64,000 nucleotides of DNA from Acidobacteriaceae bacterium. Lineage in GTDB: Bacteria; Acidobacteriota; Terriglobia; Terriglobales; Acidobacteriaceae. Below are positions 42,654 through 56,072 of the stretch, piece after piece. The notes under the pieces were generated by a model. That model saw only the letters and a program-made list of their open reading frames with translations. It was not told where the DNA came from and did not search any database. Where the stretch lies: NCBI GenBank assembly GCA_003131315.1, contig PKUV01000082.1, positions 1 to 64,000 on the forward strand, in the 5' to 3' direction. Every line of letters starts with the position of its first letter. The stretch's first letter is position 1. The position numbers and the translations under genes are program-made.

Positions 42654-42854
42654 TTAGATGTAGCCAAGGGCTTTCAATCTCTCTTCGATGATGCGCTGTT
42701 CCTCCTGGTCTAGTCTTACCGCATCCCGGCGGGTGACTTCCTCCAATAGAAACACGATCAGTTTTTCCAGGCTTGAAAATCGCTTCCCATAGAGTTCTTC
42801 CGCCGCCGAGCAGAGGTCCTCTGGCAGACTTACTTGTCGTAACGATGCTGTCAT
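42654..42854 (-). CDS. small 66-residue helical protein coupled to wzx
   Basis: The gene overlaps the wzx stop by 4 bp (ATGA), strong evidence that it is translated. The product is predicted largely helical: a basic/charged middle (CSAAEELYGKRFSSLEKLIVFLLEEVTRRD) and C-terminus QEEQRIIEERLKALGYI. No transmembrane segment. The C-terminal ERLKALGYI resembles the tails of some locus-associated sulfatase-like proteins, but that is a weak match. It could be an adaptor for Wzx or a neighbouring transferase. The family is not recognised. Confidence 0.65.
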   Translation of the reverse strand: MTASLRQVSLPEDLCSAAEELYGKRFSSLEKLIVFLLEEVTRRDAVRLDQEEQRIIEERLKALGYI

Positions 42855-44443
42855 CGGGCTTCAAGCCTCATCATTCCGAGCATTCCCCGTACTCTGGACC
42901 CTATGGCTCCGGCCACCAAGCGGTCATCCTCATCCAACCCGGCAAGTAACGCCAATAAGATGAAGGCGAGGTAGCCCAACGATAGGCTGGCCACGATTGC
43001 AAGAACTATATTGTGGAACAAACTTGCTTCCATCCTTACCAGAGCAACGATCGCTGCGCTACCCAACACCGGCAAAAACAGCCGGATGTAGCTTCGATTA
43101 TACGGAGTCAATCCCAAAATCGCCTTCACTTCACGCAAGTACAGGAGGTTGACCGCGGCATTCGTTGCCGCGGACACAACAATCGCCCCAATGATTCCCC
43201 AAACCGGTATGAGAACAAGGTTGAGGATGATGTTCCCAATCACGACCTTCACCTGCACTCGAACCAGACGGCCCTGGTGCCCGGACATAATGAGCAAAAG
43301 GCCCGCGGAACCCGTAGCGCAGTTGATCAATTGTCCGAGGCTTCCGATTACCAGGATTGGCCATCCCGCTCGAAACTCGCTTCCAAATATCTGCATCAGT
43401 GGCGCTGCAAAGACACAAACCACAATCGCCAACGGAAGAGTGAATCCAAAGATCCACTTGGTCAGCGTCTGGTAGAGCCGCCGCAAAAGATCTAGCTCCC
43501 CGCGCGCATGCAAATCCGCAATGGTGGGGGAAAAAATCTGATTCACCGATTGAAGCAGGATCGGCAGGAACGCTACGACCGAGCCCGCTACCACATAGAT
43601 GCCCACACTCCGGGCGTCGAGATAATAGCCCAGCACAATCTTGTCCAATGAAGCAAAAGTATATTCCAGCGCCTGCACGGCAAACAGGCTGGCAGAAAAC
43701 CGGATTGCTTCACGTTGCAAGCCTGGAAGTTCACCTGCCACGGAACGGTAGCCCGGCGGCATGAGCTTCCATGTTGTCAGCGCCAACAGGACGAGCGTGA
43801 TCAGGGCGGCGGCAATCTGCGCCAGCAAGTACCCGGAAAGGCCCATGCCAAGCATCAGCAGGCCGACGCCGAAGAGCATGTTAAGCGGACTGCCAATGAA
43901 GTTCGTGATGACCGTTCTACGAGCGACGTCCTTGAAGCCGGCAAGGGCCTGTCCAAAGAACGAGGTAAAGCTCCCCAATACCATCAATACGGCAAAAGCC
44001 CCCATGTACTTCGACAATGCCGGCGTGTGGTAGAAGCGATCCGCCACCCACCCGCTTATCAAGAGCATGACGGCAGCGACCATCAAGTTTGCGACAGCAA
44101 GGACCGCAAGGCCGCGCCACAGAAATCCTTTAAGCTCGCCATACCGCCCGGTTCCGTTGTAAACCGCCACGTATCGAGCCGCGGCCTGCGGAAGCCCCAG
44201 CGCCGCAATCAATCCGAGCACGCCGCCAACCGTCATGCCGAGTGCGTAGATACCCAGCGCCTCGGCGCCCAACACTCGCGCCAGGTAGATTTTGAAGAGG
44301 TATCCCGCGCCCGCGGTAAACAGGGTGCCAGCAAAGAAGACTGCCGAATGCCGCGAGATCTGTCCCATCTCGCCGCGAAATCGCGCATGACTGGTTGCGA
44401 GCGACGACTGCGAGGCTTCGAGGGCTGTATCGGGGATGTTCAA
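42851..44443 (-). CDS. wzx: Wzx-type oligosaccharide flippase
   Basis: A 530-aa polytopic membrane protein of the MOP/MATE-like flippase family, with roughly 12-14 hydrophobic segments. The start of the transmembrane core (SRHSAVFFAGTLFTAGAGYLFKIYLARVLGAEALGIYALGMTVGGVLGLIAALGLPQAAARYVA) is typical of Wzx/RfbX proteins. The protein should move undecaprenyl-diphosphate-linked repeat units across the inner membrane. The final segments (SYIRLFLPVLGSAAIVALVRM and HNIVLAIVASLSLGYLAFILLALLAG) complete the bundle. Its start follows a 204-bp gap after the GT-B gene; its stop is coupled to the small 66-aa gene. Confidence 0.9.
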   Translation of the reverse strand: MNIPDTALEASQSSLATSHARFRGEMGQISRHSAVFFAGTLFTAGAGYLFKIYLARVLGAEALGIYALGMTVGGVLGLIAALGLPQAAARYVAVYNGTGRYGELKGFLWRGLAVLAVANLMVAAVMLLISGWVADRFYHTPALSKYMGAFAVLMVLGSFTSFFGQALAGFKDVARRTVITNFIGSPLNMLFGVGLLMLGMGLSGYLLAQIAAALITLVLLALTTWKLMPPGYRSVAGELPGLQREAIRFSASLFAVQALEYTFASLDKIVLGYYLDARSVGIYVVAGSVVAFLPILLQSVNQIFSPTIADLHARGELDLLRRLYQTLTKWIFGFTLPLAIVVCVFAAPLMQIFGSEFRAGWPILVIGSLGQLINCATGSAGLLLIMSGHQGRLVRVQVKVVIGNIILNLVLIPVWGIIGAIVVSAATNAAVNLLYLREVKAILGLTPYNRSYIRLFLPVLGSAAIVALVRMEASLFHNIVLAIVASLSLGYLAFILLALLAGLDEDDRLVAGAIGSRVRGMLGMMRLEAR

Positions 44444-44647: not shown

Positions 44648-46420
44648 TCACAGCCCTTTGGCATTCGAGGAAGAAGGTGCTTCAGCTGGTTGGCAGAGAA
44701 CTTCCGACAGGGCCTCCGGAGAAATCGCCTGCACCAGCCGGCGTGCGGTGTCCGAGTCGGGCATAACCGCGCACAACATACTTGGAATGCGCAGCAGGTC
44801 ATCCGGAAATTCGAGCATCCGTCCCACGCCGAAGCGGACATATTGAGGAGCATATCCGGCGTAAGCGTTCCGCAACCATCCGCACAGAAAAGCGGGGATT
44901 CCGACCGCTGCACATTCGAAGGCCACCGTCGATTCGACCGTCACCGCGCACCAGGTCTTCTGAAGAATCTCGCGAGACAGTGGCGCATCGGTCAAACTCA
45001 CCAACTTCCGGTCGTCCTCGCTCAAGATCCGTTTCACCAACCTCCGCCGCTGCCGGGCGCTCTCAAACGGATGCAGCTTCAAAACCACGGTCTTGCCCGA
45101 TCCGCGGGCAGCCGCACAGAGACGTGGCAACACCTCTCGATAAATCGTCTCCACCCGCCAGAAATCCGTTTCATACGGCTCGGTGAAAAACGTAATCCAG
45201 GGAGCACGTTCACTCCAGACTGAAGCATTCTCTCGCGGCGGAGACGACGCCGCTCCGATCCGAATCCGGCTGCCATCGACTCCGCAGATGCGTTCCAGAT
45301 AGTCACGCTCCATCTCACCTTTGGCCAGATAATTCGAAAACCGCGGATTCTTGAATGCCATGCGGCAATCGAGAGCTCCGTGATGGCACGCGACTGCCGG
45401 AATTTCCCGCTGCTCGGCCAGCAGCAGAGGAATCCGCGTGTATGGATTCGAATCGTCGGCGCTCAAGCAGCCGGCCACCGAGCGCGTCTCAAAAACCCGG
45501 ATCCAGGCATCGCGAACCGCGACTCCCCAGCGCAACCAACGCGGCCCCTTTTTCAAGATCTCGAGATGAACCGGCAACCTGAATGCCGGATGTTCTCCGA
45601 GCGACTGCTCCATCTGCTTCCAGCAGACTTCAAGTTTCTGCAATTCATTCTTGTCGCACCTCTTCGTTGCGAAACTTGCCAGACGCGCCGTCTGCACGTT
45701 TGCCGGAACCGGCGAGACTGCTGCGGACTCGCGGGCGAGAACCAGGAGGAATTTCTGCTCGGGCAAAATACCCGCGTAGCTGAGAGCGGTTTTCGTGACA
45801 TTCGAATAGGCCGACGGAAGTAGCACAACCGGCTCCGATTCCGCTGATTGCGCCGAGGATTGCGCCGCTGGCCCCGCCAGCTTCCTTCGCCAACGGTAGT
45901 GCGGGTCGTACTTGTCGTACACCACCTGCAGCAATTGCTCAAAGCTCAGGTTCCTCGCTGCGGTGACGCTGCGACGCAAAATCCTGGGCACCAGACGCCT
46001 CTGTAGTCTCCGGTGGAGCGCTTGCAGCGGTATTCCCAACTGGAGTCGCACAGCTTCTGCCGTCACCGACGGCCGGCTTACCGCCAGCGTGCGACATCCG
46101 CTGAGCTTCTCGGCCAGCCGAAGCGCGAGCCGCACGTCCTGCAATTCCGGCTGCAGCACCAGACTGATCACGTCCCACCAGTCGATGCCAAAACGGTCCA
46201 CAACGCGTCCCATGCCGAGTTCAAGCAGGCCGCGCCAAATCTGCATGTCCTCAACTTCGACGGCAAGGTCGAAAACGCTGGAGACCGGACAGCCCAGCGC
46301 GGCACTCCGTTCGTCATAAAAAGATTTTGGGGCTCGTCCCAGGTCGATCACCGAATCCCAATGCTGACTTGTCCACGAACCGTGGAAGTCATCGTCGGGA
46401 TGTAAGAGGAGAACTCGCAT
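44648..46420 (-). CDS. GT-B-like protein, candidate nonulosonic acid transferase
   Basis: A 590-aa cytosolic protein. The C-terminal half reads like a CMP/CDP-sugar-type GT-B transferase: TVVLKLHPFES (an HP motif, about residues 463-473), then WCAVTVESTVAFECAAVGIPAFLCG (an ST motif, about 504-528). Sialyl-/polysialyltransferase and CDP-glycerol transferase families have a similar HP and S-S/T pair. ACHHGALD (about 363-370) may be part of the acceptor site. The N-terminal half (LLLHPDDDFHG, WWDVISLVLQPELQDVRLALRLAEKLSG) is unlike known sialyltransferases. It lies directly downstream of the PseI gene, so transfer of the nonulosonic acid is the best inference. No family was recognised with confidence. 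Confidence 0.65.
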   Translation of the reverse strand: MRVLLLHPDDDFHGSWTSQHWDSVIDLGRAPKSFYDERSAALGCPVSSVFDLAVEVEDMQIWRGLLELGMGRVVDRFGIDWWDVISLVLQPELQDVRLALRLAEKLSGCRTLAVSRPSVTAEAVRLQLGIPLQALHRRLQRRLVPRILRRSVTAARNLSFEQLLQVVYDKYDPHYRWRRKLAGPAAQSSAQSAESEPVVLLPSAYSNVTKTALSYAGILPEQKFLLVLARESAAVSPVPANVQTARLASFATKRCDKNELQKLEVCWKQMEQSLGEHPAFRLPVHLEILKKGPRWLRWGVAVRDAWIRVFETRSVAGCLSADDSNPYTRIPLLLAEQREIPAVACHHGALDCRMAFKNPRFSNYLAKGEMERDYLERICGVDGSRIRIGAASSPPRENASVWSERAPWITFFTEPYETDFWRVETIYREVLPRLCAAARGSGKTVVLKLHPFESARQRRRLVKRILSEDDRKLVSLTDAPLSREILQKTWCAVTVESTVAFECAAVGIPAFLCGWLRNAYAGYAPQYVRFGVGRMLEFPDDLLRIPSMLCAVMPDSDTARRLVQAISPEALSEVLCQPAEAPSSSNAKGL

Positions 46421-46516: not shown

Positions 46517-47572
46517 TTATCGTGCCACCAGCGCCCAACTCAGCGGCGTTCCCCGCTCCACATCGCAGGCCGAGCGTTTTCCCAGAACTTCTTGGAAGTG
46601 CCGTGGGTGCAACCCGTCCGCTGGACGAATCGAACGCACGTTCTGTTTCGTAAACAACTCGCCCTTCTTTATATCTTCGACCACAAACAGCGACCGCCGA
46701 AACTTGCGGCTGTTGGCCTCGCGCGGTCCGGAGGTAAACTGGACCGCGCCGAGAGCTTTCTCGGCTGTGCGCACCGCCTCCACCATCGCCTTGAATTCCG
46801 CGGGTTCGAGTGAGAACGCGCCGTCCGGCCCTCCATCCGCCCGTTGCAGACAAAGATGTTTCTCAATGATGCATGCTCCCAGTGCCACGGCGACGACTGG
46901 AACCGCGATGCCCATCGTGTGGTCGGAAAGTCCCACGGGACAACTGAAGCGTCGCGCAAGTTCCGGAATCGTGAGCAGGTTCGCCTCTTCCGGCGGCGCC
47001 GGGTAGGCGCTCGTACACTTCAACAGCGCAATCTGAGTCGCACCCGCCCCGCGCGCCGCCTCGACCGCTTCGGAGATTTCGTCAACGCTGGCCATGCCCG
47101 TGGACATAATCAGTGGCTTTCCGGTGCGAGCCATCTTCTGGATCAGGCCGATGTCCACCAGTTCAAACGATGCCACCTTGTGCGCGGGAACATTCATCTG
47201 TTCGAGGAAATCGACGGCACTGTCGTCGAACGCGCTCGAAAACAACTGCATCCCCAGTTCGTCTGCGATCTCTTTCAGTTTCGGCTGCCACTCCCAGGGC
47301 GTAAATGCCTCCTGGTAGAGGTCGTGAAGACTGCGCCCATCCCACAGTGTGCCGCCCGCAATCCGAAAACACTCTTTGTCACTGCGCAGCGTGATCGTAT
47401 CCGCCGTGTAGGTCTGGAGCTTGACCGCATCCGCGCCGGCGTCCTTGGCCGCTTCGATGATGCGCACTGCCTGGGAGAAGTCCTGGTTGTGATTGGCGGA
47501 CAACTCCGCAATGCAGTACGCGCGACTTCCCTGGCCAATGCGGCGCTTCCCGATCTCGATGTAGTCGGTCAT
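46517..47572 (-). CDS. pseI: pseudaminic acid synthase PseI (NeuB family)
   Basis: A 351-aa TIM-barrel enzyme that condenses phosphoenolpyruvate with a 2,4-diacetamido-2,4,6-trideoxy hexose (altrose form in the Pse pathway) to give the nonulosonic acid. Typical segments: RIGQGSRAYCIAELSANHNQ (SANHN), DAVKLQTYTADTIT, GRSLHDLYQEAFTPWEW (the DLYxEA.TPWEW segment is typical of PseI rather than NeuB), VGLSDHTMG and IEKHLCLQRADGGPDGAFSLEP. A C-terminal SAF/AFP-like domain (about 285-350) closes the active site in the dimer. The ATG at 47572 overlaps the PIG-L stop codon (TGATG). The Leg-type sugar cannot be excluded, but PseB and PseC support Pse. Confidence 0.92.
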   Translation of the reverse strand: MTDYIEIGKRRIGQGSRAYCIAELSANHNQDFSQAVRIIEAAKDAGADAVKLQTYTADTITLRSDKECFRIAGGTLWDGRSLHDLYQEAFTPWEWQPKLKEIADELGMQLFSSAFDDSAVDFLEQMNVPAHKVASFELVDIGLIQKMARTGKPLIMSTGMASVDEISEAVEAARGAGATQIALLKCTSAYPAPPEEANLLTIPELARRFSCPVGLSDHTMGIAVPVVAVALGACIIEKHLCLQRADGGPDGAFSLEPAEFKAMVEAVRTAEKALGAVQFTSGPREANSRKFRRSLFVVEDIKKGELFTKQNVRSIRPADGLHPRHFQEVLGKRSACDVERGTPLSWALVAR

Positions 47573-48267
47573 CAATGATTCACCGCCGGCCTTACCGAGC
47601 GGATCAGCTCGAATGCTTCCACCGCCTGCAAACCCACAACGCTGCCCCAGCGCGTAGCGATCGCGCGCAGCGCTTCAGCGGAGCGAGGGTGGGGAAATTT
47701 ACGAGTCTCGGTGTCGTAGCAGCCCATCGCGGCGATCTTCGTCTCAAGCGAATCCGCGATGTCCACGAAGACATTGGGACGGAATGACGGTCCGAGGCAC
47801 TGGAAGGCCCACTCGGTGGATGACGGAACCTCGAAGGCGTAGACATCGCGCACGCACTGCCCGCTCACAGGCCGCGTCGCCGTCAGGACGGCGCGGTGAA
47901 CCACCCCGTGGTCGACATTCAAGTCTCCAGGGTGATGCGTGTAGATGGTCTCGGGACGGAAGCGAGCGACGAGATCTTCGACCGTCTTCACGACGTCAAG
48001 TAGCGGTACAGTGTCGAGGCGGTTGTCGGGCAGCTTGCAAAGGACGAGTTCTTTCGCCCCGACCATGTCGGCAGCTTGCTGAGCCCGGGCGTGCAGGTGC
48101 TGCAGTTGGTGCTGGTCGGCGTCTTCGCGGTGCGCATAGCGCGAGGACATGCCTTCGGCGAGGATGGCGATACGCACTTCGTGACCCTCGCGGACGAGGC
48201 GCGTCATCGTGCCGCCACAGCCGAGGATCTCGTCGTCTGGGTGCGCGGCGACGACCAGAACGCTCAT
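47572..48267 (-). CDS. PIG-L family N-deacetylase
   Basis: A 231-aa zinc-dependent deacetylase of the LmbE/PIG-L family. The metal motif is in VVAAHPDDEILGCGG (HPDDE, with the His, Asp pair) and a second His in THHPGDLNVDHGVVHRAV. It should remove an N-acetyl group from an amino sugar. It is coupled to both neighbours: 4-bp ATGA overlap with the formyltransferase stop upstream and TGATG with pseI downstream. Its position suggests it acts on the Pse pathway intermediate or final CMP-sugar, exposing an amine for the formyltransferase. Substrate is not proven. Confidence 0.87.
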   Translation of the reverse strand: MSVLVVAAHPDDEILGCGGTMTRLVREGHEVRIAILAEGMSSRYAHREDADQHQLQHLHARAQQAADMVGAKELVLCKLPDNRLDTVPLLDVVKTVEDLVARFRPETIYTHHPGDLNVDHGVVHRAVLTATRPVSGQCVRDVYAFEVPSSTEWAFQCLGPSFRPNVFVDIADSLETKIAAMGCYDTETRKFPHPRSAEALRAIATRWGSVVGLQAVEAFELIRSVRPAVNH

Positions 48268-48968
48268 TCTTTCGGCTCCTTGGGTTCGACGGTGATTTGG
48301 ACGTCGGCCACGATTCGTCCATCGTACAGAGCGGATCGACTGAACTCGAAACGGTAGCCGGCGTGAGACAGGAAGGCGCGGGGGTAGCCTTCGGCGTCGA
48401 GCATTCGGATAAAGTCGTGGAGTTGTTCCAGAGAATCGAGTTTTGCGATCCGGCTTTCTTCCGGCTTTCTGCGCCTGAAGTTCACAGGTTCTCCCGTTTG
48501 CGGTAAAGGTTGCATTTCATCCTGCACGATTTGCTTGATCATGTCTGCCGAGAGCGTGCACGCACGGAGATAAATTTCCTCGGCGCCACCCTCGAGGGAT
48601 AGATTCCTTCTCAGATAGACTGGGCCCGCGTCAAACTCTGACGTCATTCTTAGCGCCGTCAGTTTGGTATTCCGGTGACCGCGAACAATCAGATTCTGGA
48701 GCGGACTCCCGCCGCGGCCATAGGGCACGTCCGTCATGTGGAAGCAGACGCACTCGACCTCGTCGAGAATCTCCGGGGGTACCTTCCAGGACCAGTGCAG
48801 AAAGAAGGCATAGCGCGGACGAAGTGCTCGAATGTTTTCGAGAGACAGTTGCTCCCGCTCCCCCACGTAGTGCCACTCCCCCTCAAGCTTACTCAGAACC
48901 TCGCCGAACACACGGCGATGCCAGGATTTGCATCCAGCCACGATATAGCGCTTGGGAGGCTGCGTCAC
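48264..48968 (-). CDS. formyltransferase in the nonulosonic acid operon
   Basis: A 234-aa formyltransferase-like protein. The core has CVCFHMTDVPYGRGGSPLQNLIVRGHRNTKLTALRMTSEFDAGPVYLRRNLSL: the catalytic His (FHM) and Asp (FDAGP) are present, but the Asn of the usual N-x-H motif appears as Cys. This form may be normal for this subfamily. No tRNA-recognition domain is visible, so it should act on a sugar amine. N-formyl groups occur at C-7 of some bacterial pseudaminic acids (e.g. in Pseudomonas aeruginosa glycans). It is coupled by 4-bp ATGA overlaps with PIG-L and with PseG-PseH. Confidence 0.8.
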   Translation of the reverse strand: MTQPPKRYIVAGCKSWHRRVFGEVLSKLEGEWHYVGEREQLSLENIRALRPRYAFFLHWSWKVPPEILDEVECVCFHMTDVPYGRGGSPLQNLIVRGHRNTKLTALRMTSEFDAGPVYLRRNLSLEGGAEEIYLRACTLSADMIKQIVQDEMQPLPQTGEPVNFRRRKPEESRIAKLDSLEQLHDFIRMLDAEGYPRAFLSHAGYRFEFSRSALYDGRIVADVQITVEPKEPKE

Positions 48969-50464
48969 TTCGCCGTCCGAACGTAATGAGTGGCGGTTTG
49001 TCCCTTTACAATCACCGTCTCCGTAGGCTTGAAGCCAGCCCTCTCAAAGGCTTTCGCGGAAGCAACATTCTCGGGCTTCACGAAGGCATTCAACTGCTTA
49101 AGGCCCCACTCCGTGAATGCCCAGTTGGTACCCAAGTCAATCAAACGGCTCGCGTAGCCCAAGCCCCGGAAACGGCCGTCCACAGTGATGTCGACGTCGG
49201 CGTGGCTCGCCCCGCGTTGGTCGAAGCGTATCTGTCCCGCCGGGACAGCCGAGGCATCCAGTGCCACGAACATACGGCAATTTCGATCGTTAAGCTTCTC
49301 GCGAAACCACGCGACGTGGTCATCCCAGGGGATAGGTTCGGAAGAAAATGCCGATGCCCGCACGACCGGGTCATTTGCCCATTCCCACAGTAGCTTACAG
49401 TCTCCATACTCCACAAGCCTAATGGAGAGTGATTCCCTCTTCAACGCGGACACGACTCTCTCGGCCCCACAACCGTCCACTAGGGCACGGCCGCGTTCGG
49501 ACATTTCCCGCCTGACAACAGGCGAGTCGGCCAAGTTCCGGAGTTGTGTGGCAATTGTGATCCGGGCAAGGTCGGAACCGCGGCCCAAATGCACCATGAT
49601 TCCCTGCTTGCCCAATTCGTCCGCAATCCCTTGCTGATTGTCCGCCAAGACAATCAGCAAAGCAGGCAGGCCGAGAAAGCACATTTCCCAACTGGTGGTC
49701 CCCGCGCCGGCCACCGCTACATCCGCCCTCGCGATCAGTTCGGGCATGCTCGAGGCGTTCTCCACCAACCGGACAGCGCGACCGGAATTGCCCACGAATT
49801 CGCGCAATCCGGCCAAGTGAGGATTGCTGCCACCTGCGACTATCGTCGCCTCGAAGTCGCCTTCCGGCAAAATCGCCTCGACCACCCGCTGCGTGACGTT
49901 GTCCGGATCGCTGCCCCCCATGGTCACCAGAACCCGGCGAGCCACTGCGGGAATCTCCCGCCTCCACCCGCGCCACGATGTAAATTCACGTCGCAGCATC
50001 GCAAAACGCGGACCCAGCAACAGGCGGGTGGACGCGTCTCGACTTGGATAGAAAGCCTCGCGGGCGTGCGCGTTCTGATTCAGCACGAGATCCGCCGAGT
50101 AGTGCCCGGCGTGGCCGTTGTCGTCGATGAACAGCACTTTGAAGCCGCGGCTTTTCAGACTCGCCTGGTATTCTGCGCCAAATTCGTAGCCGTCGACCAC
50201 CACCCACGACGCGCCAACTTTGTGCGCCAACTGGGCGGCTTCCTCCGCATCGGCGGCGCTCCCCACCCGAACAGCCGCTCGCGCAACCTCGAACCCCTCG
50301 TTTCGCAGCCGTTCTTCCACCGCAGGCGTGGCGTCGGCCATCATGAAAATGGCGTGCCCTCCCGCATCCTGCCAGGCTTGCGCCAGCGCCAGACAGCGCA
50401 TCACATGCCCCGTTCCTATCGCGAGACTGGCATCGGCCCGAATCAAAAGTACGCCTGGTTTCAT
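48965..50464 (-). CDS. pseG/pseH: PseG-PseH fusion: UDP-sugar hydrolase + N-acetyltransferase
   Basis: A 499-aa fusion. Residues about 1-345 are PseG (UDP-2,4-diacetamido-2,4,6-trideoxy-beta-L-altrose hydrolase), with the signature IRADASLAIGTGHVMRCLALA (catalytic His in GHVMRC), LVTMGGSDPDNVT and GAGTTSWEMCFLGLPAL. Residues about 350-499 are a GNAT acetyltransferase of PseH type (SIRLVEYGDCKLLWEW, IPWDDHVAWF, VDITVDGRFRGLGYASRLI, FVKPENVASAKAFERAGF). PseH would acetylate the C-4 amine and PseG then release UDP, consecutive steps of the pathway. ATG 50464 has GGAG just upstream; TTG 50473 is an alternative. Confidence 0.9.
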   Translation of the reverse strand: MKPGVLLIRADASLAIGTGHVMRCLALAQAWQDAGGHAIFMMADATPAVEERLRNEGFEVARAAVRVGSAADAEEAAQLAHKVGASWVVVDGYEFGAEYQASLKSRGFKVLFIDDNGHAGHYSADLVLNQNAHAREAFYPSRDASTRLLLGPRFAMLRREFTSWRGWRREIPAVARRVLVTMGGSDPDNVTQRVVEAILPEGDFEATIVAGGSNPHLAGLREFVGNSGRAVRLVENASSMPELIARADVAVAGAGTTSWEMCFLGLPALLIVLADNQQGIADELGKQGIMVHLGRGSDLARITIATQLRNLADSPVVRREMSERGRALVDGCGAERVVSALKRESLSIRLVEYGDCKLLWEWANDPVVRASAFSSEPIPWDDHVAWFREKLNDRNCRMFVALDASAVPAGQIRFDQRGASHADVDITVDGRFRGLGYASRLIDLGTNWAFTEWGLKQLNAFVKPENVASAKAFERAGFKPTETVIVKGQTATHYVRTAK

Positions 50465-50534
50465 CGACTCCAATGAAGTTGCATCCGATCGACCTTACAC
50501 CCAACGACCGCTCTGGATTCCCAAGCTGCGCGTA

Positions 50535-53500
50535 TCAGCGAACCTTGAATACCGGCTGAATCATCTCGCCTTCAAGATGCTCTTCCGGATGGGGTTCGCT
50601 CAGCCATTTCGACACTGTCTTGCACACTTCCGCATACACTCGCAGCGTCTGTTCAATCGCCAGCGGATCGTGCGCCGCTGTCATGTTATGCGTTGCCAGC
50701 AGCAGCACTCCGCGCTTCACGCATTCTTGCGCGAACAGACTGCGCACCAGAAGACTGTCCTTGCCATCGGCATCGAGGAACTTGATCAACGACCAGAAAG
50801 GATAACCGATGCACTGGATGCGATCCTGCAATCCCGCCTCTTTTGCCAGCGTGTTCAATCCCTCCTGCAGCACGCGCCCGTTCGCATTCATGCGGGCTAG
50901 CGCGTCGGTGGTTTCCAGCACGTCCAGCACCTTCATGGCCGCCGCCATCGACGCCACTTCGCCTCCGAAGGTGAAGCTGAAAAAAATATCTTCGAACACC
51001 TTCATGACGTCTGCTCTTCCCACCACGCACGCAATCGGGAATCCGTTGCCCATCGCTTTGCCAAAACAAGCCAAGTCGGGAGTCACACCGAACCTTTTCT
51101 GCGCGCCCCCCAGCCCGAAATGAAAACCGCTACAGATCTCGTCGAAGATGAGCAGCGCTCCGTGCTCATGCGCCAGGTTCCTCACGCCTTCCAGAAAGCC
51201 CGCGGCTGGAGGCCAGAAGTTCACCGGCTCCATGATGACGGCGGCGAAGTCGCCTTGGTGTTCGTTTAAAAGTTTTTGCAGTGATCCCAGGTCGTTGTAC
51301 ACGAACGGATGCGTCAAGGCCCGCACCGCTTGCGGAACGCCCGCATTTCGCGTCGTGCTGCCGATGTACCAATCCTGCCATCCGTGGTAACCACAGCAGG
51401 CGATTCGCTCGCGTCCGGTGAGGGCTCGCGCAGCGCGGACCGCTCCCGCAGTAGCGTCCGATCCATTCTTGCCGAAGCGCACTTTCTCCGCGCACGGGAT
51501 GAGACGCGTGAGCCGCTCCGCCAGTTCCACTTCCAGCGGGTGCGGCAAAGAAAAACTGTGCCCTTGTCCCAACTGCCCCGCCACCGCCGCATTTACCTCT
51601 TCGTGCGCATAACCGAGAATATTCGGCAGCAATCCCTGGATGTAGTCGATATATTCATTCCCGTCCACATCCCAAACGCGGCACCCTTTGCCCTTTGCCA
51701 GAAACATCGGCGCCACCCCGCGCACGTGCTGGTTCGCTCCCTTGCTGAACGTCTGCGAAGCACCAGGGATCACCTTCCCCGCCCGCTCCAGCCAGGCTTT
51801 CGATTTTTCAATCGGCCTTCGCGGCGCCGCCGCCGCACGCGCATCTTCGAAAAGGCTTTTGTAGTACCCGTGGTTCGAAACAATTTCCGAGTTCATTTTT
51901 TCCAGTCCCGGATTCTTCTCGATCAATTCAAAAACATCTTCCATACCGAAACTCTCCTTGTCGCGAAAAGCTTTGTACACCGCCCGGATGAACTCCAGGT
52001 CTGCCGCCTCGTCCACCGTCCAGCGATAATGCTGGTACAAGGATGTCGAATCGTTCTCCACGTTCGCAGTTCGAAATTTTTCCGAACGCAGGTACGGAGT
52101 CACGTGCTCGCGCTCCGAAGTCTTATTGGCCTCGTGCCAGGCCCGTTCCAGCGCGGAAAACGAAAAGATCTCCGTATCCAGACCATCTGGGTAGCTCCGC
52201 ACCATGGCATTGGATGCGTAATCCAGATCGCCACGTTGAAAGCGGCGCACCACTCGATCGATCACTTCCGGATCAATCAACGGGCAATCGGCCGTGATGC
52301 GCACCACGTACGCGGCTTTCTCTGCGCGCGCCGCGTGGTAGAAACGATCAAGCACATCGTGCTCGCTGCCCCGGTAACAGGCAACCCCGTTCTCCCGGCA
52401 CATCTTTTCGATGACGTCGTCCGCGGGAGCGGTGGAAGTGGCCACCACCACCCGATCCACCAACGTGGCCCGTTTCACGCGCTGAATCACGTGCCACAAC
52501 ATTGGCCGTTTTTCGATCTCCGCCAGGCTCTTGCCGGGCAACCGGCTCGACCCCATGCGCGCCTGAATGATCGCCACCACCGGTCCCTCGCTGGCTTCAC
52601 TCGTCCAATTCAGCGCCTGCGGCTTTCCCTCTTCCGACGACTTCTTGGCTGCTTCCACCACCCGGATCACATCCCGGCTTTGCTCCAGATCAACCATAGG
52701 CCCCGTTCCGCTCCCGAGAGACTCCAGGAAGTGAACCATCTCCGCTACATACATGTCGTTTGGTTCAAACACGTACGGGATACTGTTCCAACCTGGCTTC
52801 TCGGCCGAAAACCAGCGCACTTCCTGGACACTGAAATCCCAAAGCACAGTCCCCGTCTCACCCACAACTTTGCACGTGCGCGTGTACGCCCTCTGCACAA
52901 AGTCCAGATGCAGTTCCGCGCGCCGCCGCTCCGGAAAACTCAGGTAGATCCACGCCGAATCTTCCACATCCACGTCCAGACTGCTGAGATGCTCAGCCCG
53001 GCAAGTCACTTCCGTCGGACGCCCTAGAAGCCAGCAAATATAATCCAGTTCGTGTGACCCATCGAGGATGATGCCCCCGCCCAGTTCGTGGCGGGCGCTG
53101 TAGCTTTCACGATAGTTTTGCCACGGCCGCCAGTCGGGAAGGTATTGCCCCGCTTCCACGTTGAGCCACAGCACACGCCCAATCTTTCCCGAATCAATGA
53201 GCTCCTTCAATATCTGCAACCCGGGATGAAACCGCATGTTGTAGCCGATCTGGACATTCCGGTCGTGGCGGCGCGCTTCGGCAATCAGTACCTGGATTCC
53301 ACTCGATTCGTGCGAAAGAGGTTTCTCGATAAACACGTGGGCGTGAGCACGCAGCGCGGCCAGCGCCTCTTCCACGTGATACACCGGCGGAGTGCAGATC
53401 AGTACGATATCCGGTTTGAATTTCTCCAGCGCCTCGCCACAGCCGCCGAAAATCTCCCCGCCTAGCTCCTCACAGCATTGCTTCAGCGCTTCCGTGCTGG

Positions 53501-53621
53501 TGTCGCAAAAGCCAAGCTGCTGCACCCCCAGCGCCTTCAGATTCCTTGCGTGCCGGCGGCCAATCGAGCCACAACCGACTACCAGAGCCCGATATCCTAC
53601 CCATTCGGAAATTCTGGACAT
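50535..53621 (-). CDS. trifunctional fusion: Gfo/Idh oxidoreductase + CMP-sugar synthetase + class III aminotransferase
   Basis: A 1028-aa protein. Residues 8-335 are a Gfo/Idh/MocA dehydrogenase (Rossmann VVGCGSIGRRH at 14-24; EKP at 99-101). Residues 347-580 are an SpsF/PseF/NeuA-type cytidylyltransferase (IIQARMGSSRLPGK 351-364; RITADCPLID 441-450; YPDGLDTEIF), which should activate the nonulosonic acid with CTP. Residues 605-1028 are a class III (GSA-aminomutase-like) aminotransferase (GKNGSDATAGAVRAAR 717-732; FDEICSGFHFG from 826; PLP lysine K855 in FGKAMGNG). The linker at 336-346 is short. No internal stop or frameshift is seen. The gene is 3 bp after pseC. It supplies the only pseF-type activity visible in the window. 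Confidence 0.9.
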   Translation of the reverse strand: MSRISEWVGYRALVVGCGSIGRRHARNLKALGVQQLGFCDTSTEALKQCCEELGGEIFGGCGEALEKFKPDIVLICTPPVYHVEEALAALRAHAHVFIEKPLSHESSGIQVLIAEARRHDRNVQIGYNMRFHPGLQILKELIDSGKIGRVLWLNVEAGQYLPDWRPWQNYRESYSARHELGGGIILDGSHELDYICWLLGRPTEVTCRAEHLSSLDVDVEDSAWIYLSFPERRRAELHLDFVQRAYTRTCKVVGETGTVLWDFSVQEVRWFSAEKPGWNSIPYVFEPNDMYVAEMVHFLESLGSGTGPMVDLEQSRDVIRVVEAAKKSSEEGKPQALNWTSEASEGPVVAIIQARMGSSRLPGKSLAEIEKRPMLWHVIQRVKRATLVDRVVVATSTAPADDVIEKMCRENGVACYRGSEHDVLDRFYHAARAEKAAYVVRITADCPLIDPEVIDRVVRRFQRGDLDYASNAMVRSYPDGLDTEIFSFSALERAWHEANKTSEREHVTPYLRSEKFRTANVENDSTSLYQHYRWTVDEAADLEFIRAVYKAFRDKESFGMEDVFELIEKNPGLEKMNSEIVSNHGYYKSLFEDARAAAAPRRPIEKSKAWLERAGKVIPGASQTFSKGANQHVRGVAPMFLAKGKGCRVWDVDGNEYIDYIQGLLPNILGYAHEEVNAAVAGQLGQGHSFSLPHPLEVELAERLTRLIPCAEKVRFGKNGSDATAGAVRAARALTGRERIACCGYHGWQDWYIGSTTRNAGVPQAVRALTHPFVYNDLGSLQKLLNEHQGDFAAVIMEPVNFWPPAAGFLEGVRNLAHEHGALLIFDEICSGFHFGLGGAQKRFGVTPDLACFGKAMGNGFPIACVVGRADVMKVFEDIFFSFTFGGEVASMAAAMKVLDVLETTDALARMNANGRVLQEGLNTLAKEAGLQDRIQCIGYPFWSLIKFLDADGKDSLLVRSLFAQECVKRGVLLLATHNMTAAHDPLAIEQTLRVYAEVCKTVSKWLSEPHPEEHLEGEMIQPVFKVR

Positions 53622-53624
53622 GAC

Positions 53625-54899
53625 TTATTTTGATTGCCCGGTCTCGAGCAAATCCGAGCGCTCGCCTTTCCCTTCAGATTTCCCTTCATAGTGAGTCACA
53701 ACTTTACGCAGCGCGTGGATCACGTCTTCCACATCCTGCGCCGTCATGGAATGGAACATAGGCAGGCTGATCAGCCGCTCGTACGCGTCTTCGGCCACCG
53801 GATAGCCTTCTTTGGAATTGGACTTGAACCGCTCGCGGTAGTACGGATGTTGATGAACCGGAATGTAGTGCACATTCACGCCGATATTCTCCGCCCGCAG
53901 CGCGCGAAATATTTCTCCTCGCCCCGCCGAAAGCATTTCCAGTTTTAGCCGGACCGGATACAGGTGCCACGCCGGAACCACGCCATCGCGCACCGTGGGA
54001 ACCACAATCGCCGGCAAATCCCGGAACGCCGCCGTGTACCGCGCCGCAATTTCCCGCCGTCGTGCCAGGTTCGCCGCCAGCTTTTCCAGCTGTGACAGGC
54101 CCAGCGCACAGGCAATATCTGTCAACCTGTAATTGAAGCCCAGCAGGACCATCTCGTAAAACCACTGCCCGGATTCCTGCCGCTGCCGCGCTTCGCTGCT
54201 GATACCGTGATTGCGAAAGCGCCGCAGCGTCTCTGCCAGCCGGGCATCGTTGGTCGCAACCATACCGCCTTCCCCGGTGGTCAGGTGCTTCACCGGATGA
54301 AAGCTGAACACGGTCATGTCAGCAATGCCACCGACGCGTTTCCCCTGATATTCCGCGCCCAGCGCATGGCAGGCGTCTTCAATCAGGAGCGTTCGTTGTC
54401 CCTGCGTCTTCGCCAGTTGCCCCAGTTCATCAAGCGCCGCGGGATGTCCCGCATAATCGACCGCGATGATCGCCTTCGTGCGTGCAGAAAGTTTTTTGGA
54501 AACTTCGCCCGGATCAAGGTTCAGCGTGTCCGGCGAGACGTCCGCGAATACCGGCGTCGCGCCCTGGTACAAAATGCAGTTGGCGGTCGCGCAGAAAGTC
54601 ATGGGGGTGGTGATCGCCTCATCCCCCGGCCCCAGTCCGACGGCAAACGCCGCACCGTGCAAGGCGGCCGTGCCCGAACTGAAGGTGACCGCGTGCCGCG
54701 CGCCGATCCACGCCGCAAACCGCTCTTCGAACTCGCCGACCTTCGGTCCTGTGGTCAGCCAGTCCGACTTCAGCACCGCAACCACCGCCTGAACATCTGC
54801 GTCATCCAGGCTTTGCCGCCCGTACGGCAACAATTTTTCCCGCACGGGCGTACCCCCATCGATGGCGAGAGTTTCCAGCTTTGTGGGTAAGGCACTCAT
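53625..54899 (-). CDS. pseC: UDP-4-amino-4,6-dideoxy-N-acetyl-beta-L-altrosamine transaminase PseC
   Basis: A 424-aa PLP aminotransferase of the DegT/DnrJ/EryC1 family. It converts the 4-keto product of PseB into the 4-amino sugar with glutamate as donor. Visible motifs: IDGGTPVREKLLPYGRQSLDDADVQAVVAVL, TFSSGTAALHGAAFAVGLGPGDEAITTPMTFCATANCILYQGATPVFADV, and the PLP lysine in TVFSFHPVKHLTTGEGGMV. This arrangement is typical of PseC. The gene is 3 bp upstream of the trifunctional fusion and follows pseB by 162 bp, a gap that holds a REP-like repeat. Confidence 0.92.
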   Translation of the reverse strand: MSALPTKLETLAIDGGTPVREKLLPYGRQSLDDADVQAVVAVLKSDWLTTGPKVGEFEERFAAWIGARHAVTFSSGTAALHGAAFAVGLGPGDEAITTPMTFCATANCILYQGATPVFADVSPDTLNLDPGEVSKKLSARTKAIIAVDYAGHPAALDELGQLAKTQGQRTLLIEDACHALGAEYQGKRVGGIADMTVFSFHPVKHLTTGEGGMVATNDARLAETLRRFRNHGISSEARQRQESGQWFYEMVLLGFNYRLTDIACALGLSQLEKLAANLARRREIAARYTAAFRDLPAIVVPTVRDGVVPAWHLYPVRLKLEMLSAGRGEIFRALRAENIGVNVHYIPVHQHPYYRERFKSNSKEGYPVAEDAYERLISLPMFHSMTAQDVEDVIHALRKVVTHYEGKSEGKGERSDLLETGQSK

Positions 54900-55061: not shown

Positions 55062-56072
55062 CTACGCCGACGTCGGAACCGCCTCCGCAGCGCTGGTTTC
55101 AGGCGTTACCAGTTCTTCCAGTTCACGCCGCGTCAGCCAGCGTTCGTTGGTGTCGCTCGAATACCGGAAGCCCTCCGGCAGCGGCTTCGCGTTCACCCAG
55201 TTTTCCGATTTCCACCACGGATGCGCCGGCTGAATCACGAACATGTCTTCGGTTTCGAGCGTTTGCCGTGACTCGTCTTCAGAGACCAGCACTTCGTGCA
55301 ACTTCTCTCCGGGACGAATCCCGATGTACTCCACCTGGCATCCGGGGGCAATGGTCTCCGCCAGATCCGCCAGTCGCATGCTGGGAATCTTGGGAACAAA
55401 AATCTCGCCGCCGTGCATCTGCTCCAGGCAGCGGATCACAAATTTTACGCCCTGCTCCAGCGTCAGCCAGAACCGGGTCATTCGAGGATCGGTGATCGTG
55501 ATCTTCCCGCGCCGGCGCTGTTCCAGAAAAACCGGGATCACGCTGCCCCGGCTGCCCACCACGTTCCCGTAACGCGCACAACTGAAACGCGTATTTCTCG
55601 CGCCGGCATAGGCATTGGCCTGCACAAACACTTTTTCCGCGCACAGCTTGGTGGCGCCGTACAGATTGATCGGATTCACCGCCTTGTCGGTGCTGAGCGC
55701 CAGAATGCGGCGCACGCCTTGATCGATAGCCGCATCAATCACGTTGCGGCCGCCCATGATATTCGTCTGGATCGCTTCGAACGGGTTGTACTCGCAAGCC
55801 GGCACCTGCTTGAGTGCCGCCGCGTGCACCACCACCGTCACGCCCGCCAGCGCGCGTTTCAACCGCTCCACGTCCCGAACGTCTCCAATGAAATACCGCA
55901 TGCTGGGATGATCGAAGCCCGACGTTCTCATCTCATGCTGCTTCAACTCGTCCCGGCTGAAAACCACCAGTCTTTGCGGCTGGTAGTCGCGCAGCATGAT
56001 CTCCACAAACTTCTTCCCAAACGACCCTGTTCCACCCGTTACCAGTATCGATTCCTGCGACCAATTGACCAT
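55062..56072 (-). CDS. pseB: UDP-N-acetylglucosamine 4,6-dehydratase (inverting) PseB
   Basis: A 336-aa SDR enzyme that starts the Pse pathway, making the 4-keto-6-deoxy-L-arabino (inverted C-5) sugar from UDP-GlcNAc. The nucleotide motif is TGGTGSFGKKFVE (N-terminus), the active-site region reads ALSTDKAVNPINLYGATKLCAEKVF (YxxxK), with the PseB/FlaA1-specific DERYFIGDVRD-like segment here as MRYFIGDVRDVERL and RYGNVVGSRGSVIPVF. The N-terminal MVNWSQESILVTGG fits family. AAGGG before the ATG is the ribosome binding site. As the first gene of the minus-strand locus it is probably transcribed from the 665-bp region upstream. Confidence 0.93.
   Translation of the reverse strand: MVNWSQESILVTGGTGSFGKKFVEIMLRDYQPQRLVVFSRDELKQHEMRTSGFDHPSMRYFIGDVRDVERLKRALAGVTVVVHAAALKQVPACEYNPFEAIQTNIMGGRNVIDAAIDQGVRRILALSTDKAVNPINLYGATKLCAEKVFVQANAYAGARNTRFSCARYGNVVGSRGSVIPVFLEQRRRGKITITDPRMTRFWLTLEQGVKFVIRCLEQMHGGEIFVPKIPSMRLADLAETIAPGCQVEYIGIRPGEKLHEVLVSEDESRQTLETEDMFVIQPAHPWWKSENWVNAKPLPEGFRYSSDTNERWLTRRELEELVTPETSAAEAVPTSA

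Follow-up and report, generated by a model that had tools for sequence, protein, structure and literature searches.

Among the closest described counterparts of the gene reported here are some that join a cytidylyltransferase to a redox enzyme. In prophages of Acinetobacter baumannii, EpaA (542 aa, with CTP_transf_3 at residues 5-192 and Aldo_ket_red at 239-525) and EpaB (262 aa, adh_short_C2) turn the pseudaminic acid (Pse) derivative Pse5Ac7Ac into 8-epiPse5Ac7Ac, inverting C8, as seen by nuclear magnetic resonance after gene introduction (PMC12053666; this and the other papers are cited from excerpts). In Vibrio B9-25K2, a bifunctional SpsF-like and aldo-keto reductase protein is encoded after PseC, and a dehydrogenase comes next (PMC7371886). 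The gene in question, P0001, lies in the first 64,000 nucleotides of contig PKUV01000082.1 of an Acidobacteriaceae bacterium (assembly GCA_003131315.1), the whole of which is called the window. It occupies positions 50535 to 53621 on the minus strand and encodes 1028 aa in which a Gfo/Idh oxidoreductase, an SpsF-like cytidylyltransferase and a class III aminotransferase (AT) are fused. The fusion is probably a trifunctional enzyme that tailors and then activates a nonulosonic acid of the Pse type, converting the C8 hydroxyl into an amine before CMP is attached.

The fusion resembles EpaA in having a CTP_transf_3 domain joined to a redox domain, and the same holds for the Vibrio protein, although the cited Vibrio passage mentions no class III AT. 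It is not a protein of the EpaA type, as its cytidylyltransferase is joined to Gfo/Idh and AT domains and not to an aldo/keto reductase (AKR): EpaA and EpaB combine an AKR domain with a short-chain dehydrogenase/reductase (SDR) partner to give an 8-epimer, whereas here Gfo/Idh and class III AT domains are predicted to give an 8-amino sugar. The sequence-only reading had compared the fusion with KdnB and KdnA, which act in making Kdo8N in Shewanella. The logic of this comparison holds, since in both cases a hydroxyl of a ulosonic acid would be oxidized and then transaminated; the homology does not, because the Kdn enzymes belong to other protein families. Their site of action is C8 of an octulosonate. 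KdnA is a DegT-type enzyme. KdnB belongs to the iron-type alcohol dehydrogenases (PMC5125639), a family for which Pfam finds no match in the fusion.

The frame runs without a stop from 53621 to 50535; the plus strand of the same interval, when read, contains stops. One frame with three enzymes had already been proposed, with no strand named, and Pfam bears this out by placing all three domains above cut-off. The Gfo/Idh/MocA domain (residues 11-334; 52620..53591, minus strand) matches PF01408, PF02894 and PF22725, with GFO_IDH_MocA at residues 11-127 and the C-terminal Gfo/Idh domains reaching 334. It thus has the Rossmann and C-terminal parts of that family together with its EKP motif (HVFIEKP), and by sequence its closest solved structure is the dehydrogenase 3ezy (E 1.8e-22). 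The cytidylyltransferase domain (residues 349-579; 51885..52577, minus strand) is SpsF-like by its PF02348 (CTP_transf_3) match over residues 349-517 and by the motif QARMGSSRLPGK; it is matched by the cytidylyltransferase 6oew with E 1.8e-40 by sequence and with a structural Z of 32.7 over 345-579. The AT domain (residues 605-1028; 50538..51809, minus strand) belongs to the class III pyridoxal phosphate (PLP) enzymes, with PF00202 (Aminotran_3) at residues 637-991; its PLP lysine, residue 855, does not vary across 12 aligned AT sequences, the fusion's own included. The catalytic motifs listed by the sequence-only reading for the three enzymes are therefore all in place.

What kind of aminotransferase is this? 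The solved folds listed for the model of the fusion are almost wholly matches of the AT domain, and two of them tie as the closest: glutamate-1-semialdehyde aminomutase (2hoy, Z 34.9) and FumI (6hbv, Z 34.6). The first could suggest an aminomutase-like enzyme that moves or exchanges an existing amino group, for instance from C7 to C8, and adds no third one. FumI, its equal in fold, is a plain aminotransferase; two segments found in the HemL that the genome also encodes, SPVRAF and QFEA, which presumably serve substrate binding, are absent from the fusion; and the 8-amino sugar described from nature carries three nitrogens. An aminomutase is thus very unlikely. HemL and FumI share fold and PLP lysine with the fusion AT, which, unlike them, is joined to two other enzymes. 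That the domain is itself the housekeeping HemL can be rejected: it scores 247.9 bits against a TIGR00713 cut-off of 527.3, the genome has its own HemL on C147 (621.6 bits), and the two segments just mentioned are missing.

The gene stands in a cluster for Pse biosynthesis, where PseB, PseC, PseG and PseI all pass their curated cut-offs. Among the ten cluster proteins scanned with Pfam and NCBIfam (the fusion and nine neighbours), there is no second cytidylyltransferase and no EpaB-like SDR. Across the genome, PF02348 appears at three places besides the fusion: one frame of 183.6 bits, which from its sequence reads like KdsB, and two weak matches (34.7 and 22.4 bits). With no other cytidylyltransferase in the scanned cluster and only these matches elsewhere, the part of PseF most likely falls to the middle domain. 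Of the two kinds of substrate named in the sequence-only reading, Pse or a Kdo-like sugar, the substrate is most likely Pse and not Kdo.

From these observations we infer the substrate, the position, the order of steps, the amino donor and the product. PseB, PseC, PseG (with its GNAT domain) and PseI would build the Pse skeleton. The Gfo/Idh domain would then oxidize a free secondary hydroxyl with NAD(P)+, most likely that at C8, beside the C9 methyl. The resulting 8-keto-Pse would be a methyl ketone, and thus a possible substrate for the AT domain, with an amino acid as donor; class III aminotransferases that accept methyl ketones exist. In the fusion, the ketone would meet an aminotransferase instead of a reductase, and the SpsF domain would transfer CMP onto the 8-amino-8-deoxy sugar. 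The conversion of a hydroxyl into an amine followed by CMP activation, as the sequence-only reading had it, is in this way supported as an interpretation: the cluster content, the near-exclusive pairing of Gfo or AKR with the AT, their repeated exchange, the action of EpaA/EpaB at C8 and a natural 8-amino nonulosonate all speak for amination.

The pairing was observed directly, as were gene content, domain identity and conservation. AT loci from bacteria and archaea were gathered by scanning named genomes with an alignment of the AT, keeping the best 80 of 578 relatives and adding 12 earlier loci, with the window itself excluded; 85 of the 92 passed the AT threshold (the ATs of L072 and L073 are identical), and the thresholds of our own hidden Markov models (HMMs) were chosen after the scores were seen. 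PseB or PseC is also present in 51 of the 85. In these 51, the redox partner is an AKR in 32 loci, Gfo/Idh in 15, both in one (L047) and neither in three; for the AKR, PF00248 confirmed the identity in the two loci checked. A narrower rule of 5 kb gives AKR 25, Gfo 14, both 0 and neither 9 (n=48), most of the nine having a partner farther away. By record names, the 48 of the 51 loci that have a partner come from twelve bacterial phyla (25 are from Pseudomonadota) and one archaeal metagenome-assembled genome (MAG), with three unnamed. A plasmid of the archaeon Halorussus carries Gfo, cytidylyltransferase and AT genes side by side, and one of Pseudosulfitobacter carries pseB, pseC, an aldo/keto reductase, a cytidylyltransferase-AT fusion, pseG and pseI. 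In a tree of 98 ATs, made by a quick method, Gfo and AKR have been exchanged at least nine times, and they are also swapped at one position inside the window's own family (L307). Such repeated exchange is what one would expect if both enzymes supply the AT with the same ketone.

An SpsF-like cytidylyltransferase is found in 46 of the 51 Pse loci with AT; the two are fused in 15 of the 51, and in 19 of all 85 AT loci. The latter count bears on where the amine would be placed. It is conceivable that the target of the redox/AT pair is C4 of the nonulosonate, or a hexose before PseI. Pse does bear a hydroxyl at C4, the only free one besides that at C8. However, fusion of the activating enzyme to the AT points to the free acid and not to a UDP-hexose; moreover, EpaA and EpaB act at C8, and the one triamino nonulosonate that was found has its amine there. 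It is on this precedent that C8 is favoured over C4, and amination at C4 or of a hexose is rather unlikely.

Since these loci were chosen for their AT, Pse loci were also sampled by PseC alone, with the exclusion of five genomes in which the AT had been seen before (G000, G023, G397, G403 and G398). The sample has 67 loci in sets of 20, 27 and 20, the first and third sets covering part of the places matched. A full cluster, defined as PseC with PseB plus PseG or PseI, is present in 40 of the 67. All six AT-positive full clusters have a redox gene (AKR in five, Gfo in one), compared with two of 34 AT-negative ones, both with an AKR, while the other 32 lack AKR and Gfo alike (Fisher p 7e-6); for the 67 loci taken together, the figures are 8/8 and 2/59 (p 7e-9). 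Setting the Gfo cut-off at 150 bits raises the AT-negative figure to 4/34 (p 5e-5). Under the first cut-offs, the two exceptions are L191, whose AKR lies some 2 kb away from PseC, and L214, in which a 545-aa protein of CTP_transf_3 and Aldo_ket_red and then a 263-aa SDR come after PseC. L214 thus has the make-up of EpaA/EpaB inside a Pse cluster, so that a joined CMP and redox enzyme encoded next to Pse genes has a precedent for chemistry at C8. Its AKR was also considered as close kin of the AT-linked AKRs; this was rejected, as it has a long branch of unsure position and an identity of about 29-34%. A search for EpaA-like genes in phages with one AKR query (L053) gave no match.

Other genes are less informative as markers. 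SpsF-like cytidylyltransferases occur in all six AT-positive control clusters, none of which has a NeuA-like enzyme; 10 of the 34 AT-negative clusters carry one too, so that this type marks the AT only in part. PIG-L is found in 13 of the 51 AT loci vs 7 of the 34 AT-negative clusters, and a formyltransferase in 10 vs 2; by their counts in both sets, neither is tied to the AT, and they were discarded as parts of the amination step.

A further possibility is that the SpsF domain alone serves Pse, the Gfo and AT domains being devoted to another sugar or side group that has nothing to do with it. Two Pse clusters (L310 and L311) have Gfo and no AT, and the AT subfamily also lives outside Pse clusters, as in 12 loci with transketolase halves and in L024, L025, L039 and L044. 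Against this, AT, redox gene and cytidylyltransferase are linked in the Pse clusters of many phyla, two of them even in one protein, and AT-negative clusters mostly have no redox gene (32 of 34, and still 28 of 34 at the loosest cut-off). We consider this explanation improbable.

Several observations nevertheless weigh against amination at C8 by the fusion. Three AT loci with Pse genes (L085, L086 and L106) have neither AKR nor Gfo. In L310 and L311, the gene of the Gfo subfamily lies in a Pse cluster with two adjacent NeuA-like cytidylyltransferases, so that a Gfo of the fusion's type can have another use. The occurrence of the AT family beyond Pse genes, the second free hydroxyl of Pse and the distance of the L214 AKR from those linked to the AT belong here as well. 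The control weakens somewhat at very loose cut-offs, where 6 of the 34 AT-negative clusters count as having a redox gene (p 2e-4), the Gfo-family genes of L263, L280, L267 and L268 being added by the looser settings. The AlphaFold model of the fusion, mostly good for the cytidylyltransferase and AT domains, is poor in the C-terminal half of Gfo.

Is the fusion real? A frameshift or an assembly error that joins separate genes had been named as what would overturn the sequence-only reading, and the Gfo is indeed a separate gene in L035, L040 and L303-L305. Among 300 genomes of Acidobacteriaceae, 20 match at E <= 1e-100, and nine carry the full fusion in one frame: the genome itself, seven congeners (80-92% identity) and one of another genus (49%). 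Against the seven congeners, dN/dS is about 0.03-0.14 in each of the three domains, values that are rough because synonymous sites are partly saturated (one could not be computed); against the 49% copy, it is 0.26-0.33 (saturated). Nine single-frame copies under purifying selection exclude an artefact, which, like a housekeeping HemL, is already refuted on present data. The same architecture thus recurs in eight further family genomes, and its domains are found as separate adjacent genes in relatives, both of which the sequence-only reading had proposed to look for. In a sample of 396 genomes of the phylum, only the genome itself has the full fusion, which is therefore rare.

The family also preserves stages of the joining. 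In L303, L304 and L305, the cytidylyltransferase and AT are fused and Gfo is a separate neighbour; L307 has the same two-domain fusion with an AKR in Gfo's place. L035 and L040 keep the gene order of the window with Gfo separate and the other two fused, and in other relatives the cytidylyltransferase and AT genes are adjacent. One congener (L308) has the fusion broken by a frame change within the cytidylyltransferase domain. L077, an Acidobacteriaceae MAG, has a fusion with identical Pfam domains and is apparently the same contig as G994; L302/L077, L303/L040 and L304/L035 were treated as identical records. In the fusion, three steps of what is probably one tailoring route have thus been brought together in stages.

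Does the predicted product occur in nature? 8-Amino-3,5,7,8,9-pentadeoxynonulosonic acid is known, as a chemical structure, from the O-polysaccharide of Flexibacter maritimus (PMC3210612); a second source reports a pentadeoxynonulosonic acid from this organism, with the position not stated in the excerpt (PMC4052302). Aeromonas offers another lead. Its group I islands have, at the corresponding places, genes for a reductase and for an AT of class III; the excerpt gives no function for them, and two subgroups are without both (PMC7874193). The Aeromonas loci L053, L066 and L071 are clusters of this kind: in them, an AKR, an SpsF-like cytidylyltransferase and an AT of the fusion's family (52-54% identity) lie between PseC and PseG, differing from the fusion in being separate genes and in having AKR instead of Gfo.

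The flagellin sugar of A. hydrophila AH-1 is Pse-like and has a mass of 403 Da (oxonium ion at m/z 404.4); it gives Pse fragments together with others shifted by one m/z unit from those of Pse5Ac7Ac9Ac, and its authors left 25 Da unexplained (PMC4691044). Replacing OH by NH2 changes the mass by -0.984 Da, and the computed candidates with three nitrogens, C16H25N3O9 and C17H29N3O8, fall at 403.159 and 403.196. An odd mass implies an odd number of nitrogens, so that 403 Da would fit a third one. On the other side, the formula ranked first by the authors, from low-resolution data, is C19H32O9, without nitrogen (PMC4691044). An acetamidino-Pse would be exactly isobaric with N-acetyl-8-amino-Pse. 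The excerpt assigns AH-1 no more closely than to one of the island groups I and III and names no AT for it (PMC7874193). For comparison, A. piscicola AH-3, of group II, for which the excerpt lists no class III AT, has a sugar of 376 Da (PMC7874193); that of A. caviae has 316 Da (m/z 317.1; PMC9290775), and Shewanella oneidensis has a two-nitrogen sugar of 274 Da (PMC3765264).

Taken further, the data may outline a widespread, unrecognized route to 5,7,8-triamino nonulosonic acids, in which an interchangeable AKR or Gfo/Idh, a dedicated class III AT and an SpsF-type CMP synthetase act together, their genes lying in Pse clusters of twelve bacterial phyla and an archaeal MAG by record names, and have been fused stepwise in this genus of Acidobacteriota. 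It would be a sister of the EpaAB route to 8-epimers, sharing the oxidation and aminating the ketone where the other reduces it, and it would explain the AH-1 sugar. This larger proposal is tentative and could go either way. Pse clusters that pair a reductase with an AT of class III (with no function given) and fusions of cytidylyltransferase and AKR are already published; the openly licensed literature, which misses most subscription journals, yielded neither a Gfo, SpsF and AT fusion nor genes for 8-amino nonulosonate biosynthesis. If the proposal holds, the pairing of redox gene and AT becomes a genomic signature from which surface sugars with a third amino group can be predicted, Aeromonas genes listed without a function would gain one, and an unexplained published glycan mass becomes testable.

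The remaining genes of the cluster lie on the same strand as the fusion, in the order PseB, PseC, fusion, PseG, formyltransferase-like protein, PIG-L and PseI. The inverting UDP-GlcNAc 4,6-dehydratase PseB (55062..56072, minus) scores 499.5 bits with TIGR03589 (cut-off 407.75), and the DegT-family 4-aminotransferase PseC (53625..54899, minus) 477.3 bits with TIGR03588 (cut-off 423.5). The hydrolase PseG (48965..50473, minus) scores 229.5 bits with TIGR03590 (cut-off 153.55) and is fused to a PseH-like GNAT domain (PF13302) that fails the curated cut-off for PseH (TIGR03585, 36.7 bits vs 93.1). Then come the formyltransferase-like protein (48264..48968, minus; PF21553), the PIG-L family deacetylase (47572..48267, minus; PF02585) and the pseudaminic acid synthase PseI (46517..47575, minus; TIGR03586 499.4 bits, cut-off 340.25). 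Beyond PseI are a 590-aa protein (44648..46420, minus) and a MOP-type flippase (42851..44443, minus; PF01943). The 590-aa protein matches no Pfam or NCBIfam family and stays beside the cluster in relatives, with homologs near PseI or the fusion in L023, L040 and the family loci; it is a candidate Pse transferase. Its AlphaFold model (pLDDT 42) was not used.

The survey also brought up other gene groups. One module combines an SpsF-like cytidylyltransferase, the N and C halves of a transketolase, an AT of the same family and, in most cases, a NeuB-like synthase; strong PseB/PseC are absent. It accounts for 12 of the 85 AT loci, is also seen on plasmid L118, and is represented by L028, L091, L092, L094, L096, L100, L101, L108-L110, L113, L114 and L118; its ATs form one supported branch of the tree together with three others. 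The module has the look of a pathway, so far undescribed, that leads to another ulosonic sugar. A second trio recurs inside or next to Pse clusters and consists of an SpsF-like cytidylyltransferase, a Gfo/Idh that is more distant and an aminotransferase of the DegT family, at L067:15291-18333 (by Pfam), L095:15018-18047, L216:16967-19984 and L267:3591-6696. Two loci have a gene for a B12-binding radical SAM protein between PseC and Gfo (L042:6629-8134, by Pfam, and L069:6597-8123, by our own HMM). Finally, L030:9100-12204 encodes a protein of 1035 aa in which a related AT domain covers roughly residues 523-875, its remaining parts being without an identified family.

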